64,000 bases of DNA from Petrotoga mobilis SJ95 (lineage in GTDB: Bacteria; Thermotogota; Thermotogae; Petrotogales; Petrotogaceae): contig NC_010003.1 of assembly GCF_000018605.1 (NCBI RefSeq), positions 1,960,501-2,024,500 on the forward strand, given 5' to 3'. The translations under genes and the position numbers were made by a program. Of the stretch, positions 1,761 through 32,243 are shown in pieces (the stretch's first letter is position 1; every line of letters begins with the position of its first letter). A model generated the notes under the pieces. The model was not told the DNA's origin, searched no databases, and saw nothing but the letters and a program-made list of their open reading frames with translations.

Positions 1761-4077
1761 AAAAGAGTTTGCAGAAATATTGAATGAAAAGATACTCATT
1801 TTAGACGGAGGATATGGAACAGAATTTATAAAAAGAGGATATAAAAATATTCCTGCTGAGATTTTAAACATCGAATATCCAGAAGTAGTTTACAATCTAC
1901 AAAGTGAATACGTAAAATCTGGAGCAGACATTCTTTTAACTAATACTTTTAGTGGAAATCGACGAAAACTCAAAGAGCTAAATTATGAAGAAGCATTCGA
2001 AAAGGTCAACGTCAAAGCAGTTGAAATTGCCAAGCAAGCATCAAAAGGCAAAGCTTTGGTCTTTGGCGATCTATCTTCTCTAGGAGAGTATCCAAAGCCT
2101 ATGGGAGCTCTTGAAATGGACGAAGCTATTGAGGAGTATTATCAACAGGCAAAAGTGTTGTTTGAAAGCGGTGTAGATGGATTTATCGTTGAAACAATGA
2201 CAGATATAAAAGAGCTAAAAGCTGCTGTATATGGAATAAGAAAAGTTACAGAAGATTTACCTTTAATAGCTCATATGACGTTTGAAGAGAACGGCCGTTC
2301 CGTTACGGGGACTTCTGTGGAAATCTTTGCGAATGTTTTTAATGATTTAGATGTAGATGTACTAGGAATTAACTGTACTTTGGGTCCCGAGGATCTTTTA
2401 AAGGTTTTTGAGCGTCTATCACTCTCAACAAACAAGTTTTTATCAGTCGAACCAAACGCTGGTAAACCCATTTTTGATGGAAAAAATTTGGAATACAAAA
2501 TGACGCCCGAAATATTTGGAATGTTTGTTGAAGACTATTTAGATTTAGGAGTAAATATTATTGGAGGCTGTTGTGGTACCTCTCCAGAACATATAAAGGT
2601 AATTAGGAATATGGTAAAAAGAAGACCTAAAAAAATAGTTAAAGAAATACCTATTATGTACTCTTCAAGAACGATCTTAAACAAATTTCATCCCTTTACC
2701 GTTATCGGAGAGAGAATAAATCCTGCGGGGAACAAAAAATTTCAAAATGAAATTGAAGAATTCAACTTCGATAATGTAATAAAAAGGGCAAACAATCAAA
2801 AAAATGCAAAAGCCCATGCAATAGACGTTAACTTGGGTATCGAAAAGATTTTGAACGAAGAGCATTTCAAAAAAATTATCATAGAATTAGACAAACACTC
2901 TTCTCTTCCTATTTCTTTTGACATTCAAAATATTGGGTTTTTAGAGAGCGCTTTAAAAGAGTATCCAGGAAGACCAATAATCAATTCTTCTAAATTGAGT
3001 AAAAAAGATCTAGACAGAAAACTAGAGTTGATTAAAAAATATGGTGGGTTATTAATAGTATTAGCGCTTGAGAAAGAAATCTTAGAATCTGCAGAAGAAA
3101 GACTACAACTAATGCTAAGAAAATGGCCATACATAGAAAGTAAAGGAATAAGTAAAGATAGAATTATAGTTGACCCATTGGTGCTATCCCTTGCTGCCAA
3201 TAACGATCCAAATATTACTTTGGAGACAGTAAAATTACTCTCGCAAAATGGGTTCAATACCACTATGGGTCTTTCGAATCTTAGCTTCGGTTTACCAAAC
3301 AGAAATTATATAAATGCAGCTTTTCTCTCAAGGGCAAAAAGTAAAGGCTTGACTTCAGCCATCTTAAATCCAGAAGATGAGTTTCTTATGAACACGTTGA
3401 ATGGCAACCTATTGTTGGATAAAAATATTGTAATACCAACTAAGGTTGAAAAACAAGATGAATTAACCGAGAAAATCCTACAAGGTGAAGAAGGTGAAGT
3501 AAAACGAATCATTGAAAATCAGTTAAAAGAGAAAAGTCCATTAGAAGTTAGTCAAGATGTGCTGGGTAAAGCGATGGAAAAGATCGGAGACCTCTACGCA
3601 CAAGGGAACATATATCTTCCTGAGTTATTGTTAGCTGCCGAAACTGTCAAACCCATTTTTGATTACCTAAACAATTTGATTCCTGAATCTCAAAACGATA
3701 AAAAAGCTAAAGTCGTACTAGCCACGGTAGAAGGAGATATACACGATATTGGTAAAAATATAGTAGCAGCAGTATTAAGAAGCGCTAACTTCAAAATTAT
3801 AGATCTTGGCAAAGATGTGGAAACTTCTATAATAATCGACGCTGTACAAAAAGAAAAACCAAATATATTAGGGCTCTCGGCTATGATGACAACTACCGTG
3901 GGAAAAATAGAAGATGTGGTAAATGAACTAAAAAAATTGAGTCTTAATGTGAAAGTTATTGCTGGTGGTGCTTCTATGAACAGAAAATTAGCTGAAACTT
4001 TTGGATGTGATGCCTACGCTAAAGATGCAAGCGAAGGGCTCAAGATATGCAAAAGTTGGGTCAATTTGAATTCGTAA
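1750..4077 (+). CDS. metH: Cobalamin-dependent methionine synthase, three-domain form
   Basis: It transfers the methyl group of methyltetrahydrofolate to homocysteine via methylcobalamin. The homocysteine domain (residues 1-290) has the zinc cysteines C209 and the pair C274-C275 in GGCCGTSPEH. The pterin domain is about 315-560. The cobalamin-binding part (about 577-775) has a helical cap and DIHDIG, with H665 as the expected cobalt ligand. The fourth, reactivation domain of E. coli MetH is missing and is supplied by the overlapping upstream gene. The 775-residue length fits this split architecture. ATG at 1750 or 1753 follows GGGTGG. Confidence 0.93.
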   Translation: MMNRKEFAEILNEKILILDGGYGTEFIKRGYKNIPAEILNIEYPEVVYNLQSEYVKSGADILLTNTFSGNRRKLKELNYEEAFEKVNVKAVEIAKQASKGKALVFGDLSSLGEYPKPMGALEMDEAIEEYYQQAKVLFESGVDGFIVETMTDIKELKAAVYGIRKVTEDLPLIAHMTFEENGRSVTGTSVEIFANVFNDLDVDVLGINCTLGPEDLLKVFERLSLSTNKFLSVEPNAGKPIFDGKNLEYKMTPEIFGMFVEDYLDLGVNIIGGCCGTSPEHIKVIRNMVKRRPKKIVKEIPIMYSSRTILNKFHPFTVIGERINPAGNKKFQNEIEEFNFDNVIKRANNQKNAKAHAIDVNLGIEKILNEEHFKKIIIELDKHSSLPISFDIQNIGFLESALKEYPGRPIINSSKLSKKDLDRKLELIKKYGGLLIVLALEKEILESAEERLQLMLRKWPYIESKGISKDRIIVDPLVLSLAANNDPNITLETVKLLSQNGFNTTMGLSNLSFGLPNRNYINAAFLSRAKSKGLTSAILNPEDEFLMNTLNGNLLLDKNIVIPTKVEKQDELTEKILQGEEGEVKRIIENQLKEKSPLEVSQDVLGKAMEKIGDLYAQGNIYLPELLLAAETVKPIFDYLNNLIPESQNDKKAKVVLATVEGDIHDIGKNIVAAVLRSANFKIIDLGKDVETSIIIDAVQKEKPNILGLSAMMTTTVGKIEDVVNELKKLSLNVKVIAGGASMNRKLAETFGCDAYAKDASEGLKICKSWVNLNS

Positions 4078-4224
4078 TTGTGTATCTTCCGATTTTTATA
4101 TATCAAAAATGTTAATAAAAAGAAAAAGCTTTATGTCGATAAAACATGATAAAATTTATCAATTTTTCTAAAATACTTATAGATAAAAAATTTCGAGCAA
4201 ATATAACGAAATTTTTTTCAAATT

Positions 4225-4372
4225 TTGATAAATGGAGATTTCAGTGTATAATCGCAAATAAATGCTTCTAATCATAAATATTTACCGATAATTAGAAATA
4301 ATGAAACAATTTTCAATTTAAACTAACTTTTGAAAATAATATCTTAGCGATTTTACTTTATTGGGAGGGAAA
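4225..4372 (+). promoter_or_regulatory. glnA promoter and conserved nitrogen-gene leader
   Basis: The 300-base gap before glnA holds a promoter, TTGATA (4225-4230), 16 bases, TATAAT (4247-4252), and a leader that closely matches the one before gdhA. Shared blocks in order are ATTAGAAATAATGAAA (4291-4306), the inverted repeat TGAAA (4302-4306) CAAT TTTCA (4311-4315), a 15-base spacer, and TGAAAATAATATCTT (4331-4345). A local hairpin TTCTAAT (4266-4272) with ATTAGAA (4291-4297) is also possible. The promoter calls follow consensus. That the block is a nitrogen-responsive operator or RNA element is inference. Confidence 0.7.
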
Positions 4373-24480: not shown

Positions 24481-27387
24481 TTATTTTGAAAGGAGAGTTT
24501 TCTGTGTGGCTTCTCCCCTTTCTTTTAGGATCCGCTGAGCATTCTTGCTACCAATATTTCTCACTTTGGTCAGAGGAATCCTCAAATATTCTCCTTCAAT
24601 TTTAAAAAGTTTTGCCTCGCTCTTGTAAAGATCCGGTCTTAAAAAACCAAAACCTCTCTTTCTCATCTCATAGGCGGTTTTAAGTGTGGAATAAAAGTTG
24701 GACTCTTCGTAATTATGTTGGTATTCGTTTTTTGAAAGCTTCTTAATCGTTTTAACAGTCAAGTCTTCATCCATTATAATGTCAATATCAAAAAACCTCG
24801 CTCTAATAGTGAAATAAACGCTGTAAAACTCAAGAGGATAATAAAGCTTGTAAAACGCTATCTTGTACGCCATTATCATGTAGGCAACCGCATGGGCTTT
24901 TGGGAAGAGATAATGAATCTTCTTCAAAGAATCAAGGTACCATTCGGGAGCTTCTGAATCATCTATCGCCTTCAGCTCTTTCTCTGTAAGCTCTTTCCCC
25001 TTTCTCACTTTTTCCATAACCATAAAGGCTGTTTTTGGTTCCACTCCGAAATACTCAAGTGTTGTCAAAATATCATCTCTACAGCTAACGATCTGATCGA
25101 TACCTGCAACATTTTTCAAAACTATCTCACGGGCGTTGTTGAACCAAATATCCGTTCCGTGTGCAAGTGAATTCGTCCTACACAGATCGTAAAAAGTTTC
25201 AGGCTTTGTCTCGGTGAGCATCTTATGGGAAAAAGGTGTCCAAACTTCTGGAACACCCAACGTGCCAATCTCCGTACCTATCTCCGAAAGATCCACTCCC
25301 AACTCCTTTGTAGAAGAGAAAAGTGAAAGAATCCGTTCATCGTGCATAGAAATATCGTTGTAATCGTAACCGGTTAAATCCTTAAGCATTTTTAAAAATG
25401 TTGGCCCATCGTGAGACAACACGTCTATTTTCAACAAATCATTTTCTAAAGCCTTAAAATCGTAATGTGTCGTAACGATACCAATCTCAGGAGAATTTGC
25501 AGAATATTGGTAAGGAGTGAAATCGTGAACATCGTACTCTTGAGGGATTATTATCATAGCCGATGGATGTTGACCTGTATTCAACTTTGTTCCTTTTATT
25601 TTCTGAGAAATCCAAAAAAGATGTGCAAAATTCATATCTTCATCCTTGAAGTAATTGAGAGCCATCTTCATAGCGTTGTACCTTGAGATGGTACTAATCG
25701 TACCTGCCTTGTAACAATAATTCCTACCAAATTTCTCTTCCAAGAACCTCTGTATATCGGTGAAGATCTCAGCCGAAAAATTCACGTCTATATCTGGGAT
25801 CTTCTCGCCAGAATACCCCATAAAAACCTCAAACCTTATATTATGCCCATCGGAGTTTAAAATTGCACCGCAATTTGGGCATGACTTCTCTTTTAAATCA
25901 AAACCACTCAAATTCAAATTCTCCACGAACTCTATAAACCCACAACTCTCACAAAAATAATGTGGCGGCAACGGATTAACCTCCGTTATCCCCAAAAGAA
26001 AAGCCACAAGCGAAGAACCAACAGAACCCCTCGAACCGATTGGGTAACCCATCTCTAAAGACTTCTCGACCATATCGGCTGAGATCAAAAATATCACCGC
26101 ATACCCGTTATCTACTATACTTTTCAATTCCTTTTCTATCCTATCTATAATTATACGGTGTAACTTTTCCCCATACCTCTTTTTTGCGTTGCTATAAACG
26201 ATATCTCTCAAATTTTGGTCGGCGGAGGGGATATAAGGCGCCTTCAATTTAAAATCAAAAGGAGCAAGCTCCTCTATCTCACCAGCGATTTTATTCGTGT
26301 TTTTCACCACAATTTCTTTTGCAATGCCACGCTTTTTGAAGATCTCAAACGCCTCATCGTACATCTGGGAAGTGCTCCTAAAATAATTAACACTTCGCAC
26401 AGTCTTTCTTGGTTTACTCTTTGTGGAGGTACCAACGATCATAGCGTTTAAATACTCTCGATCTTCTTCTCTCAAATAATGAACATCACCGGACATAACA
26501 ACAGGCTTTCTGACATCTTTTGCAATCTCATAGACAGTTCTAGAATAATCGATAATCTTACCCTTCTCCAAACATAAATCATTATAACAATTCATAGGGA
26601 AAAGCTCTATATAATCAAAAAAAGTTATCCATTCCTTCAAATCGTTAGTAGAATACTTGTTCAAATAGGAGTAAAGCAAAAACCCATCCAGTGAAGAGCC
26701 TAAAAGTAGCCCTTTTCTCAAATTCTTCAAATCAGAGAGTGAAATTATTGCACTTTTATTCACAACGTTCATATGTGAAATCGATATTATTTTATAAAGA
26801 TTCTTCAACCCCTCTTTATTCTTAACCAAAACATTCACATGTTTTACGATCCCTCTTCTCTCATCGTGTACATTCAACTCACAACCAAAAATAGCTTTTA
26901 TACCCTTTCTTTTAGCATACTCATAGAAATAAGGAATTATCTGCACATTTTCGTTATCAGTAATGGCAACCGCCTTTTGTCCAAACGAAGAAACAGCATC
27001 CACCAACTCCTCCATACCCAATATAGACAACTTTGAGCTCATCTTTGAATGAGCATGAAGTTCAACCCTCTTTTCTACCGAAAGATCATGCCAAGATAAG
27101 TGAACAGCAGCTTTTATTGTGTTTACCTTCAAACAATAACTCCCCATTTCGCAATCGTACTCTAATACCCCTTCAAATCTAAACCATTCACCTTTCCTTG
27201 ACCCTGTTCGGGGCGTTTTCCCGCTTTCTGACTTACACAAAAAAGAATAACTATAATCAGAAACAAACAGATAATAAAAATCCTTTGACTCATTAACATG
27301 AAAAATTTGGCCTTTTATGCTTATCTCCTTATTAAAAAACTCTTCCTCCCGCCCTTTAATATCCAATAGACTCTCAAAAAAATACAT
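24481..27387 (-). CDS. polC: PolC-type DNA polymerase III alpha subunit lacking the 3'-5' exonuclease domain
   Basis: 968 residues from ATG at 27387 (AAAGGAGGAGG upstream); frames open further upstream run into the promoter. A short OB part (about 20-95) is followed by a PHP domain (about 108) and the C-family polymerase core: VGSRGSVGSSLVAFLLGITEVNPLPPHY, zinc CESC and CPNC, catalytic IPDIDVNFS and LKIDVLSHD, HGTDIWFNNA and FPKAHAVAY. In B. subtilis and T. maritima PolC an exonuclease with DFETTGL-type motifs interrupts PHP; here GCELNVHDERRG joins HVNVLVKNKEGLKNLY directly. PHP has TDN in place of TDH. The C-terminus stops about 40 residues early. It may be a second, divergent PolC. Confidence 0.85.
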   Translation of the reverse strand: MYFFESLLDIKGREEEFFNKEISIKGQIFHVNESKDFYYLFVSDYSYSFLCKSESGKTPRTGSRKGEWFRFEGVLEYDCEMGSYCLKVNTIKAAVHLSWHDLSVEKRVELHAHSKMSSKLSILGMEELVDAVSSFGQKAVAITDNENVQIIPYFYEYAKRKGIKAIFGCELNVHDERRGIVKHVNVLVKNKEGLKNLYKIISISHMNVVNKSAIISLSDLKNLRKGLLLGSSLDGFLLYSYLNKYSTNDLKEWITFFDYIELFPMNCYNDLCLEKGKIIDYSRTVYEIAKDVRKPVVMSGDVHYLREEDREYLNAMIVGTSTKSKPRKTVRSVNYFRSTSQMYDEAFEIFKKRGIAKEIVVKNTNKIAGEIEELAPFDFKLKAPYIPSADQNLRDIVYSNAKKRYGEKLHRIIIDRIEKELKSIVDNGYAVIFLISADMVEKSLEMGYPIGSRGSVGSSLVAFLLGITEVNPLPPHYFCESCGFIEFVENLNLSGFDLKEKSCPNCGAILNSDGHNIRFEVFMGYSGEKIPDIDVNFSAEIFTDIQRFLEEKFGRNYCYKAGTISTISRYNAMKMALNYFKDEDMNFAHLFWISQKIKGTKLNTGQHPSAMIIIPQEYDVHDFTPYQYSANSPEIGIVTTHYDFKALENDLLKIDVLSHDGPTFLKMLKDLTGYDYNDISMHDERILSLFSSTKELGVDLSEIGTEIGTLGVPEVWTPFSHKMLTETKPETFYDLCRTNSLAHGTDIWFNNAREIVLKNVAGIDQIVSCRDDILTTLEYFGVEPKTAFMVMEKVRKGKELTEKELKAIDDSEAPEWYLDSLKKIHYLFPKAHAVAYMIMAYKIAFYKLYYPLEFYSVYFTIRARFFDIDIIMDEDLTVKTIKKLSKNEYQHNYEESNFYSTLKTAYEMRKRGFGFLRPDLYKSEAKLFKIEGEYLRIPLTKVRNIGSKNAQRILKERGEATQKTLLSK

Positions 27388-27421
27388 AGAACCTCCTCCT
27401 TTAGGAATACGTATATATATT

Positions 27422-27450
27422 ATTATACATAATTCTACCCAAGAAGTCAA
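27422..27450 (-). promoter_or_regulatory. polC promoter
   Basis: Minus strand TTGACT (27450-27445), 17 bases, TATAAT (27427-27422). The predicted start of transcription is about 30 bases before the polC ATG. Confidence 0.8.
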
Positions 27451-27457
27451 CAGTGGG

Positions 27458-27790
27458 TTGCAGTGGGGGCGGAGAGCAGGGCGAAGGGGCGCAAACCTAG
27501 ATGGAATGATTATTTTAAAAACTTCATAAATTTTAAAAATAAGATTCCGATTTTAAAAAAGTTCAGAGCGGGGTTTTTTAAGGGGGGCTCTCTTAAATGT
27601 TCGGGGGTTTTAGGGGCCGCAGGTCCCTTCCGTAAATGGGTGGGGAGCGGGGGAAGGGCAAAGCCTTTTGCTCATCCTTAGAGGGTGGGCTGCGGGGCGA
27701 AGGGGCGCAAATGTAGATAAAATGATTATTTTAAAAACTTTGTAACTTTCAAAGGGTTAAAGGGCGCTAATAAAAAGAGCGCTAATAAAA
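27458..27790 (+). repeat. Large mosaic GC-rich repeat block between polC and the small lysine-rich gene
   Basis: No gene is seen. Three units lie in the plus direction: 27464-27495, about 27629-27660, and 27675-27712, with ends such as GGGGCGAAGGGGCGCAAA. Between them are an AT-rich linker (AATTTTAAAAATAAGATT) also found at 37.98 and 53.2 kb, and GGGGCCGCAGGTCCC, a hairpin seen in other blocks. GAGCGCTAATAAAAA is duplicated at the end. Unlike most blocks it points away from both neighbouring genes. Confidence 0.8.
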
Positions 27791-27795
27791 AGTAG

Positions 27796-27821
27796 AAGGC
27801 AGATAAATAATTATCTGCCTT
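27796..27821 (-). terminator. Terminator of the 18-residue gene
   Basis: Perfect 11-bp stem AAGGCAGATAA (27796-27806) and TTATCTGCCTT (27811-27821), then CTACTTTTTATT on the minus strand. Confidence 0.85.
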
Positions 27822-27843
27822 CATTCCGATCAATATCACTTAA

Positions 27844-27900
27844 CTACTTCTTTGGTTTATCTTTTGGCTTGTCTTGTTTCTTCTTTTTTTCCTCTGCCAT
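27844..27900 (-). CDS. 18-residue lysine-rich peptide with its own promoter and terminator
   Basis: The encoded peptide is MAEEKKKKQDKPKDKPKK, almost entirely charged. I know no family. Evidence that it is real: GGAGGAGGAAGG lies 5 bases before ATG at 27900, a consensus promoter is about 80 bases upstream, and an 11-bp terminator follows 22 bases after the stop. The leader carries GGGC-TTTT-GCCC directly before the ribosome-binding site. The alternative is that the transcript acts as a small RNA and the frame is incidental. Confidence 0.6.
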   Translation of the reverse strand: MAEEKKKKQDKPKDKPKK

Positions 27901-27979
27901 GACCCTTCCTCCTCCGGGCAAAAGCCCTGTCAATGGAACCCTTATACCTATAACCAACACATATAATAATCTTATAAAT

Positions 27980-28007
27980 ATTATACCATACTAAAAATTA
28001 AATGCAA
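27980..28007 (-). promoter_or_regulatory. Promoter of the 18-residue gene
   Basis: Minus strand TTGCAT (28007-28002), 16 bases, TATAAT (27985-27980), with an extended TGG before the -10. It predicts a transcript of about 180 bases ending at the 27.8 kb terminator. Confidence 0.75.
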
Positions 28008-28276: not shown

Positions 28277-30619
28277 ATGTACGAAGAAATCTTTGAATTG
28301 ATAAACAAAGGAGAAATAAACAAAGCTCAAGAACAAATAGAAAAAATATCCGATGATGACCCGAAAAAATACAACTTAAAAGGACTAATACACTTCAACA
28401 AAAAAGAACTCGAAAAAGCCAAAGAACAATTCGAAAAAGGTTTAACAATAAACCCCGTTGACACAGACCTATTATTCAACTATGGGTATCTACTAAAAGA
28501 AATGAATCAAGAAATGGAAGCATGGAGATACCTGATGAGGATACACGACAAAGACTGGGCAACTTATGACCTCTTAGGAGACATAGAATTCAAAAACAGA
28601 AGCAAACTAGCATCTTTAAGATTTTACCTAAAAGCGGCAGAACTAACAGATAACCCACAAATGAAAAAGAAATTCTTAGAAATAAGAAACAAGCTAAAGA
28701 AAGACACAAAGATAGCCTTCCTTTGTTTACCTGGCTTAGACAACTTCCTAAAAGACATAGTAGAAACCTTTTCTCTCGGATACAATGTCAAACTCGTAGT
28801 ATCAACAGACGGCAACGAAATAACACAAGCGATAAAATGGGCAGACATAGTCTGGCTTGAGTGGGCAAATGACTTAGCAGTATTTGCAACTAACAAAGTC
28901 CCTGAAATAGCAAATAAAAAAGTTATTTGTAGATTACATGGGTATGAGGCTTTTAATGTGAATGTTCTTAACAAAATAAATTGGAATCTTATTGATAGGA
29001 TGATTTTTGTTGCTGATCATGTTAGAGAAGATGCTTATGAATCCTGCCCCCAGATAAAAAATGTTCCATATACAATGGTTTATAATGGAATTAATTTAGA
29101 TAAGTTTGTCTTTAGCAAAAGGACGAAAGGTAAAAGAATATGTTTTAGTGGACACGTTAACTACAAAAAAAATCCTATGCTCATAATCCAAATCTTAAAA
29201 AAACTTTTAAAAATAGATGAAGAATACAGAATAGATTGGGCAGGAGATCATCAGGATATAAGAATAAAGAAATATTTAAATTACATATTAAAAGATATGG
29301 GAATAGAAGATAAATTTACTTTTCACGATTGGACAAATGATATCAATTCATGGTTGGAAGATAAAAATTATTTTTTATCAACCAGCATTCATGAGGGTTA
29401 TGGGGTAGGAATAATGGAATCTATGGCAAGAGGGATAAAACCAATAATTCATAATTTTTACGCTGCCCGAGGATTTTATCCAGATGAGCTTATATACAAC
29501 ACAGTCGATGAAGCAGTAGAAAAAATAACAGAAGAAAGTTACGACTCCGAAAGTTACCGTAGGTTTATCGAAGATAATTACACGTTGGAGGAACAGATTA
29601 ATGCATTAGAAACCGCACTAAATACATTAGAAAAAGTCAACAAGAAAATAAATAAAAAAGTTGCCGAAGATCTGAAGGACTCATTTTTAGATTATATGAT
29701 TCCTAAATTTATAGAATTTACACCATACACAGACAAATATATTGATTCTTTCGATTTTGAAGGTTCTAAAATTAGAATTGGAAAGGTAGAAAAAATTACA
29801 GATGAGATTAGCCTTATTGAATTTATAGTAAAAAATAAAAAGGGTCAACAATTAGCATTGCAAAATATTTGGTATAATCACTCTACTAAGCAAATAACTT
29901 TCCCAAATTATATCTCATTAAGTAAAAATAAAAAGATAATTCAAAATTTTGTATATCAGATACTCGAATCCAGGTTAAGTTACATTGGTAATATGTTTAG
30001 ATTTCCAGGAAGTAAAAAATATTGGGAAGAAAGATACAAAACAGGAGGTAATTCAGGACATGGTTCTTATGGAAAATTAGCAGAATTCAAAGCAGAAGTA
30101 ATAAATTCTTTTGTAAAGGAGAAAAGAATTAAATCCATTGTAGAACTTGGATGTGGAGATGGGAATCAAGTATCTTTGTTTGACTTTCCAAAGTATACTG
30201 GTTTGGATGTTTCAGAGACTGCTGTTAATTTGTGTAGAGAACGTTTTATGAAAGATAAAACAAAAAGTTTTTTCTTATATAATCCAGAAGAGGTAGAAAG
30301 CAACAAATCACTTTTTAAGGCTGAGCTGTCGTTGTCATTGGATGTGATTTACCACCTGGTTGAGGATTTGCAGTTTGATTTATACATGAAAAACTTATTC
30401 CTATCTGCAGAAAAATTTGTTATCGTCTATTCTTCAAACACAGATAAAAATCCAGAAGGCACGCCCCCTCACATAAAATACAGAAGGTTTACTGATTGGA
30501 TTGAAAAGAACTCTCCAGAATGGGAATTATTCCGTAAGATTAAAAACAAATATCCTCAGGAGTCTCTCTCTGATTTTTTTATTTTCTGCAGACGCCAAAA
30601 AGGTCTAAACAATCATTGA
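28277..30619 (+). CDS. TPR / GT4 glycosyltransferase / methyltransferase fusion
   Basis: 780 residues, three parts. TPR-like helices span 1-135. A GT-B glycosyltransferase follows (about 145-440) with the family 4 motif HEGYGVGIMESMARG (E373 and E381 region). The C-terminus is a class I SAM methyltransferase (about 590-780) with VELGCGDGN at 622-630. It probably makes and methylates a glycan on a surface protein; flagellin is the next intact gene. Codon use changes abruptly near 28915 (residue 213): C-ending codons and few T before, T-rich after, suggesting a recombination joint. ATG at 28277 follows AAGGAGG. Confidence 0.85.
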   Translation: MYEEIFELINKGEINKAQEQIEKISDDDPKKYNLKGLIHFNKKELEKAKEQFEKGLTINPVDTDLLFNYGYLLKEMNQEMEAWRYLMRIHDKDWATYDLLGDIEFKNRSKLASLRFYLKAAELTDNPQMKKKFLEIRNKLKKDTKIAFLCLPGLDNFLKDIVETFSLGYNVKLVVSTDGNEITQAIKWADIVWLEWANDLAVFATNKVPEIANKKVICRLHGYEAFNVNVLNKINWNLIDRMIFVADHVREDAYESCPQIKNVPYTMVYNGINLDKFVFSKRTKGKRICFSGHVNYKKNPMLIIQILKKLLKIDEEYRIDWAGDHQDIRIKKYLNYILKDMGIEDKFTFHDWTNDINSWLEDKNYFLSTSIHEGYGVGIMESMARGIKPIIHNFYAARGFYPDELIYNTVDEAVEKITEESYDSESYRRFIEDNYTLEEQINALETALNTLEKVNKKINKKVAEDLKDSFLDYMIPKFIEFTPYTDKYIDSFDFEGSKIRIGKVEKITDEISLIEFIVKNKKGQQLALQNIWYNHSTKQITFPNYISLSKNKKIIQNFVYQILESRLSYIGNMFRFPGSKKYWEERYKTGGNSGHGSYGKLAEFKAEVINSFVKEKRIKSIVELGCGDGNQVSLFDFPKYTGLDVSETAVNLCRERFMKDKTKSFFLYNPEEVESNKSLFKAELSLSLDVIYHLVEDLQFDLYMKNLFLSAEKFVIVYSSNTDKNPEGTPPHIKYRRFTDWIEKNSPEWELFRKIKNKYPQESLSDFFIFCRRQKGLNNH

Positions 30620-31076: not shown

Positions 31077-32243
31077 ATGAGGATTAACCACAACATCAGT
31101 GCATTGAATGCATGGAGATCGATGGATCAAGTAAACCAATCTATGGGTAAAACACTTGAAAAACTTTCTTCTGGTTTAAGGATCAACAGAGCAGGAGACG
31201 ATGCAGCGGGATTAGCAATATCCGAAAAGATGAGAGGTCAAATAAAAGGTTTGGATACCGCTGTAAAGAATGCACAAGACTCTATATCTTTGATACAAAC
31301 AGCAGAAGGAGCATTGACAGAAACACACTCTATACTTCAAAGAATGAGGGAATTATCTGTTCAAGCTGCATCTGATACCAACACAAATGTTGATAGAAAT
31401 CAAATTCAGTTAGAATTAGACCAACTAAGAGAAGAGATCGATAGGATTTCAAGAACCACAGAGTTCAACACAATGAAATTGCTTGATGGTAAGATTGAAT
31501 CTTTCAGAGGTAGTGAAGATATTAAAGTTGTTACTGGAGGAAATATAAATGTTGAAGCTGGATTGATATCCGGCAGTACAGCAGTGGAAGGTACTTACGT
31601 TGTAGAAGTTGGACAATTAAGTGGTACTGAAACCACTGCTTTGGATGTTAAAATAACTCAGATAACAGCTGGTGGACAAACTAGCACCATTGTCACTTTG
31701 GGAGCTGGAGCAGCTACTATTGGTGGAATTTCATTTAAATGGGAATCATCAACTTTTGCTATCTCAGATTTTGGAGGGTCTTTGCCCAAAAATGAAATTG
31801 TAGATAGTGCAGTAGTTAGAGTTGAAGCAGCTAATACAGCTGCTAATCAATTAGTTTTGCAAATAGGGGCGAATGAAGGTCACAACATCGTACTTGGAAT
31901 AGACGATATGAGTTCCAAGGCTCTTGGACTCACGGAGGATTCACTTAAAGCAACCGACCAAGACAGTGCTGAAAGATCGATAATGGTTGTGGACGCCGCA
32001 ATTCACAAGGTAAGTACAGCGAGAGCTTCACTTGGTGCCGTTCAAAACAGATTGGAACATACTATATCCAACTTGGGTGTAGCTTCTGAGAACTTAACCG
32101 CAGCAGAAAGCAGAATCAGAGACGCAGATATGGCAAAAGAGATGATGGATTTTACAAAGCAACAGATACTCTTGCAGGCATCGAATGCGATGTTGGCACA
32201 AGCGAATACAATTCCACAAAATGTGTTGCAGTTGTTGAGATAA
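31077..32243 (+). CDS. fliC: Flagellin
   Basis: 388-residue flagellar filament protein. The N-terminal D0/D1 region begins MRINHNISALNAWRSM and contains LSSGLRINRAGDDAAGLAIS. The C-terminal D1/D0 ends MLAQANTIPQNVLQLLR. The middle (about 140-285), rich in Thr, Ser and Gly, is the surface-exposed part and offers many Ser/Thr positions for O-glycosylation, consistent with glycosyltransferase genes on both sides. ATG at 31077 follows GGAGGTG. A clear sigma-28 promoter was not found upstream. Confidence 0.96.
   Translation: MRINHNISALNAWRSMDQVNQSMGKTLEKLSSGLRINRAGDDAAGLAISEKMRGQIKGLDTAVKNAQDSISLIQTAEGALTETHSILQRMRELSVQAASDTNTNVDRNQIQLELDQLREEIDRISRTTEFNTMKLLDGKIESFRGSEDIKVVTGGNINVEAGLISGSTAVEGTYVVEVGQLSGTETTALDVKITQITAGGQTSTIVTLGAGAATIGGISFKWESSTFAISDFGGSLPKNEIVDSAVVRVEAANTAANQLVLQIGANEGHNIVLGIDDMSSKALGLTEDSLKATDQDSAERSIMVVDAAIHKVSTARASLGAVQNRLEHTISNLGVASENLTAAESRIRDADMAKEMMDFTKQQILLQASNAMLAQANTIPQNVLQLLR

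Follow-up and report, generated by a model that had tools for sequence, protein, structure and literature searches.

Does the short stretch next to polC in this window (the whole 64,000-nucleotide stretch of Petrotoga mobilis SJ95 DNA that was analysed) hold a real gene for an 18-residue lysine-rich peptide, and what might such a peptide do? The initial annotation had proposed an extended −10 promoter, a GGGC-TTTT-GCCC hairpin, the ribosome-binding site GGAGGAGG, the frame MAEEKKKKQDKPKDKPKK and a terminator with an 11-bp stem, leaving the strand unstated. Each of these elements was present when the sequence was read, and the strand of the whole unit is minus. The extended −10, TGG-TATAAT, was read directly at 27980–27988 within TATGGTATAAT; no convincing −35 match was seen upstream of it, and it was absent from the list of a sigma-70 scan (27988–27980). 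The small GC hairpin at 27916–27927, recognized by sequence and folding, lies directly 5′ of the Shine-Dalgarno site at 27908–27915, which is identical in genomes G002, G004 and G005. The ORF occupies 27844–27900 (ATG at 27900, TAG end at 27844) and is an unannotated tiny gene, whose lysine-rich peptide has a net charge of +5 and almost no hydrophobic residues. The intrinsic terminator at 27795–27822 is followed by the T-rich tail TACTTTTTATT (27794–27784), and its stem was scored at 12 pairs instead of 11. An RNA of 176 nt covering the unit folded better than shuffled sequences (z = −2.74), the terminator being its strongest helix. The unit DNA is single-copy in this genome, the sole other match being the terminator's own dyad, and an Rfam scan of the window gave only three tRNA matches, none of them at the unit.

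The genes on both sides lie outside the unit. On the minus strand, a 989-residue ORF at 24481–27450 was assigned by Pfam and NCBIfam to polC, a PolC-type DNA polymerase III alpha subunit; NCBIfam NF001688 aligns its residues 202–981 to model positions 614–1404 of 1445, and the Pfam matches of the product include no exonuclease domain. The divergent neighbour, at 28277–30619 on the plus strand, encodes a TPR/glycosyltransferase/methyltransferase-like protein (Pfam: glycosyltransferase group 1, with TPR-like and methyltransferase-like matches below the cut-off) and is adjoined by a flagellin-like gene at 31077–32243, assigned by eye. The window also contains seven copies of a GC-rich interspersed repeat, GGGTGGGCTGCGGGGCGAAGGGGC, with at most three mismatches (zero expected), at positions 108, 1126, 27683, 28195, 38160, 42166 and 54082; two of these copies flank the peptide gene in direct orientation.

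With thresholds set after the peptide had been seen (ATG-initiated ORFs of 15–30 residues, at least 40% Lys, at least 75% charged or polar residues and a ribosome-binding-like site), 17 matches were obtained in 22 Thermotogota loci (303,517 bases), all of them the peptide gene or its counterparts. The same scan gave no match in 64 loci from other phyla (474,831 bases) and none in first-order Markov resamplings of the window (2,560,000 bases). The peptide unit is not due to chance.

Within the genus of the window (g1), the whole unit was 94–95% identical in three of the five other genomes, and the peptide in all three was MAEEKKKKKDKPKDKPKK. Comparison of the two g1 versions of the ORF showed three silent codon changes and one Lys/Gln exchange. 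No match to the unit was detected in G003 by the DNA search of g1 genomes. In G001 (locus L231, 2785–2793), the flanks were kept and window positions 27759–27988 were replaced by 7 bases; the gap spans the −10 element to beyond the terminator, which is exactly this 230-bp unit. This clean absence indicates that the gene is dispensable and not essential in g1.

Thermotogota are a thermophilic phylum to which a near-basal position in the bacterial tree is often assigned. We searched 103 genomes of the class by codon patterns, DNA follow-ups and one eight-genome search (G001, G003, G006, G007, G009, G010, G013 and G017; none of the matches listed was in G001 or G003, and absence from these eight is provisional and rests on the other patterns), and counted only short in-frame ORFs; many rows of one pattern were instead N-terminal parts of large proteins or not in frame. 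Stand-alone genes for 18–24-residue peptides were found in at least 20 genomes, including the window's own, representing 6 of 38 genera and 3 of 11 families (first family: g1, 4/6; g3, 2/2; g4, 1/1; g7, 1/1; second: g11, 8/10; third: g21, 4/4). The count of 20 of 103 is a minimum, since the patterns require a GAGG/GGAG site, or the start or core motif; no counterpart was found by these pattern and DNA searches in 83 genomes, including two of the six of g1. The two g11 genomes with no match were G034, which is 80% complete, and G037, which has 7% contamination and 640 contigs. A plain protein search with the 18-residue peptide reached g1 only (4 of 103 genomes). The counterparts are MDKKSDKKKDQGKKDKPKNAPKKK and MDKKPEKKKDQGKKDKPKDSKKK in g3, MYKKFDKKKDRSKKDKPKDNPKKE in g7, MKDKKQEKKNKKTPKKQEKK in g4, MADKKKEVKKEARKETKKEKPKK with variants in g11, and MQEKKEKKQEKKQDKKEKK with variants in g21; the 12 sequences measured contain 45–56% Lys and carry a net charge of +5 to +8. 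A ribosome-binding site stands at every counterpart, a weak one in G024. Intrinsic terminators of differing sequence lie 3′ of the ORF in g1, g3, g4, g11 and g21, where position is kept but sequence is not (an imperfect stem in G029 was overlooked by the automatic check), and no clear terminator was seen after the ORF in g7.

Two further pattern matches were rejected. An MPQKKKK... start in g6 (G010 and G014) belongs to an ORF that runs on to 209–210 residues, presumably a GrpE-like protein, and an MAEKKKK... start in g21 belongs to a 129-residue protein, which we take to be ribosomal.

A wide scan for MA[DE][KE]KK..[SPTA]KK-stop across the genomes of 84,980 species yielded 64 stretches, most of which are the beginnings of larger proteins. 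Three of the 64 (L100, L138 and L157) were short, in-frame and K-rich by eye; no ribosome-binding site was seen for L138 and L157 in the stretch shown. The scan returned no Thermotogota record, though the g11 ORFs fit the motif; since it may omit records near the window, it says nothing about Thermotogota. In L100, a Methylomirabilota contig, positions 4063–4270 contain tandem lysine/alanine-rich micro-ORFs, MAAKKKVAKKAPKKK and MAEKKKAAKKAKKAPAKGPCKAKK (15 and 24 residues), each behind a G-rich ribosome-binding-like site, with a perfect hairpin 3′. These tandem micro-ORFs are a possible analogue of the Thermotogota microgenes.

Selection on the frame was evaluated in eight pairs of close relatives, in which, with small numbers, 9 silent and 16 replacement codons were counted, whereas random changes would be expected to give 20.6 replacements (P = 0.026); a smaller set of six pairs gave 7 replacements against 10.9 expected (P = 0.016). 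Silent changes are thus only modestly in excess, and the pair G025/G036 showed two replacements and no silent change. Over the eight pairs, identity was 94.7% in the ORF versus 88.7% outside, and only two internal ORF indels, both of 3 nt, were observed versus 37 outside, with lengths of 1 to 15; by these measures the RNA was not conserved above the frame. The initial annotation had named an unconserved frame within a conserved transcript as the outcome that would speak for a small RNA, and the opposite was found, the ORF being kept better than its surroundings. The ribosome-binding site, start, stop and frame are conserved across species, and G049 has gained three in-frame codons at the ORF end. 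Many replacements preserve charge or polarity, and selection seems to favour a lysine-rich, mixed-charge composition and the size of the peptide over its exact sequence. Frame conservation above that of the surroundings and the presence of the same architecture in six genera lend good support to the proposal that a compact gene for a lysine-rich peptide truly exists here.

These data bear directly on the other ways in which the locus could be read. A small RNA with working hairpins, whose ORF would be incidental or a ribosome-loading device, would suit the compact promoter-hairpin-terminator unit, its stable fold and the 94–95% identity that in g1 extends beyond the ORF over the whole unit; moreover, putative ncRNAs of T. 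maritima contain ORFs of less than 40 amino acids, for which the available excerpt of the report gives no peptide evidence (PMC3636130). However, sequence and length outside the ORF turn over as frame, start, stop and composition persist, and Rfam has no match at the unit; since the frame outlasts the sequence around it, the unit is unlikely to act purely as RNA. A short lysine-rich ORF with a terminator directly behind it also has the anatomy of a leader-peptide attenuator, or of an upstream ORF that regulates a gene downstream of it, but the next gene on the minus strand, polC, begins approximately 350–400 nt past the terminator behind its own promoter-like site (27450–27422), the downstream genes vary between genera, and the fold shows no alternative antiterminator. 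No regulated gene that is directly downstream and conserved in relatives was found, so such a leader function is very improbable. The patchy occurrence (20 of 103 genomes) and the clean loss in G001 are what would be expected of a young or decaying micro-ORF that is translated and functionless, but its retention with an intact frame in four of four g21, two of two g3 and eight of ten g11 genomes makes this quite unlikely.

A separate matter, which concerns origin only and is compatible with the same mechanism, is whether the microgenes form one family. The KDKPK core, exact or with one mismatch, is present in all seven gene-carrying genomes of g1, g3 and g7, out of 17 genomes with any match; the matches in the other ten lie in unrelated frames, six of which were read as such, together with g11 matches outside the microgene. 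TATGGTATAAT occurs upstream in both g3 genomes as in g1, g3 and g7 are alignable over the ORF and the 3′ region, and the glycosyltransferase neighbour is near the gene in both g1 and g7; together these features provide good evidence that the genes of g1, g3 and g7 (Petrotogaceae) descend from a common ancestor. The genes of g4, g11 and g21 are alike in composition, size and anatomy and do not have the KDKPK core, and the low complexity of the sequences makes homology across families unprovable. Lysine-rich microgenes that are real in each genus might instead have evolved independently, without forming a single family: purine-rich runs of AAA, AAG and GAA easily yield K/E peptides, the peptides are of low complexity, the neighbours differ between families (a fasciclin-like protein in g11, and in g21 a position 3′ of a carbamoyltransferase-like gene, both by eye), and the Methylomirabilota contig has two tandem K/A-rich micro-ORFs of its own. 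Weighed against the features shared among g1, g3 and g7, independent origin is nearly as easy to believe as to doubt.

For the compact peptide gene, the following mechanism can be proposed. RNA polymerase would start at the extended −10 and produce a monocistronic RNA of approximately 180 nt, ending at the terminator at 27822–27795; ribosomes brought by GGAGGAGG would then make the 18-residue peptide of net charge +5, and the gene would be one of a set of patchily distributed Thermotogota microgenes. Judged from the sequence data, the product is probably a translated, functional microprotein. Its composition suggests that it should be disordered and cationic, with RNA, the ribosome or another polyanion as its natural partner; the most likely role would be electrostatic, that of a soluble polycation on such a partner, useful and dispensable, the target being a guess. 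Given a translated functional microprotein, RNA or the ribosome as its target, as suggested by composition alone, is a tentative assignment, somewhat likelier to be wrong than right. The overall reading, a translated, disordered polycationic microprotein acting on RNA or ribosomes, seems to us evenly balanced between true and false. Four counterpart peptides (the 18-residue peptide of the window was left out) matched no family in Pfam or NCBIfam at E-values up to 0.1, and one g3 peptide, a weak query with its 24 low-complexity residues, matched nothing in the PDB by phmmer at E-values up to 10.

In most counterparts, a hairpin is predicted beside or over the ribosome-binding site, with differing sequences: 5′ of the site in g1 and some g11, over the site in g7 and g21 (GCCT-AAAAGG-AGGC), and by other pairings elsewhere. 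All of these predicted 5′ hairpins are weak at 65 °C, and their likeness hints at regulation short of proving it. A bolder and rather doubtful extension is that the microgenes represent an unrecognized class of encoded polycations, overlooked by gene finders, with one gene found per genome. Their lysine-rich, mixed-charge products of 18–24 residues would play the part of a translated polyamine towards RNA, ribosomes or polyphosphate; the hairpin at the ribosome-binding site could permit self-control, and the class may reach beyond Thermotogota.

These units illustrate that comparative anatomy can reveal genes well under annotation limits, and they constitute a concrete and cheap set of candidates to be tried by Ribo-seq and by mass spectrometry of peptides. 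Should the peptides prove to bind RNA or ribosomes, few stand-alone proteins with that ability would be smaller. No paper describing them was found in the literature, as judged by title or the start of the abstract. Some known systems resemble them in part. The ribosomal protein bTHX of thermophiles is small and basic, with about two dozen residues and arginine/glycine motifs; the peptides here are likewise short, basic and thermophilic in origin, but rich in Lys, Glu, Asp and Pro. The histone H1-like AlgP and chlamydial Hc2 are, in the available excerpts, lysine-rich and of low complexity like our peptides, and Hc2 binds DNA; however, Hc2 has 165–237 residues versus 18–24 here, and our peptides contain many acidic residues and no KAAKKA-like repeats, save for Methylomirabilota L100. 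A histone H1-like assignment found no domain or sequence match for the four counterpart peptides in Pfam and NCBIfam. In the available excerpt of a smORF survey of Enterobacteriaceae (PMC11188072), the ORFs are likewise short (15–70 codons) and unannotated, with many products predicted to be disordered and no function assigned; their mean hydrophobicity is above that of annotated small proteins, whereas the peptide described here is nearly devoid of hydrophobic residues, consists of approximately half lysine, and has its own promoter and terminator.
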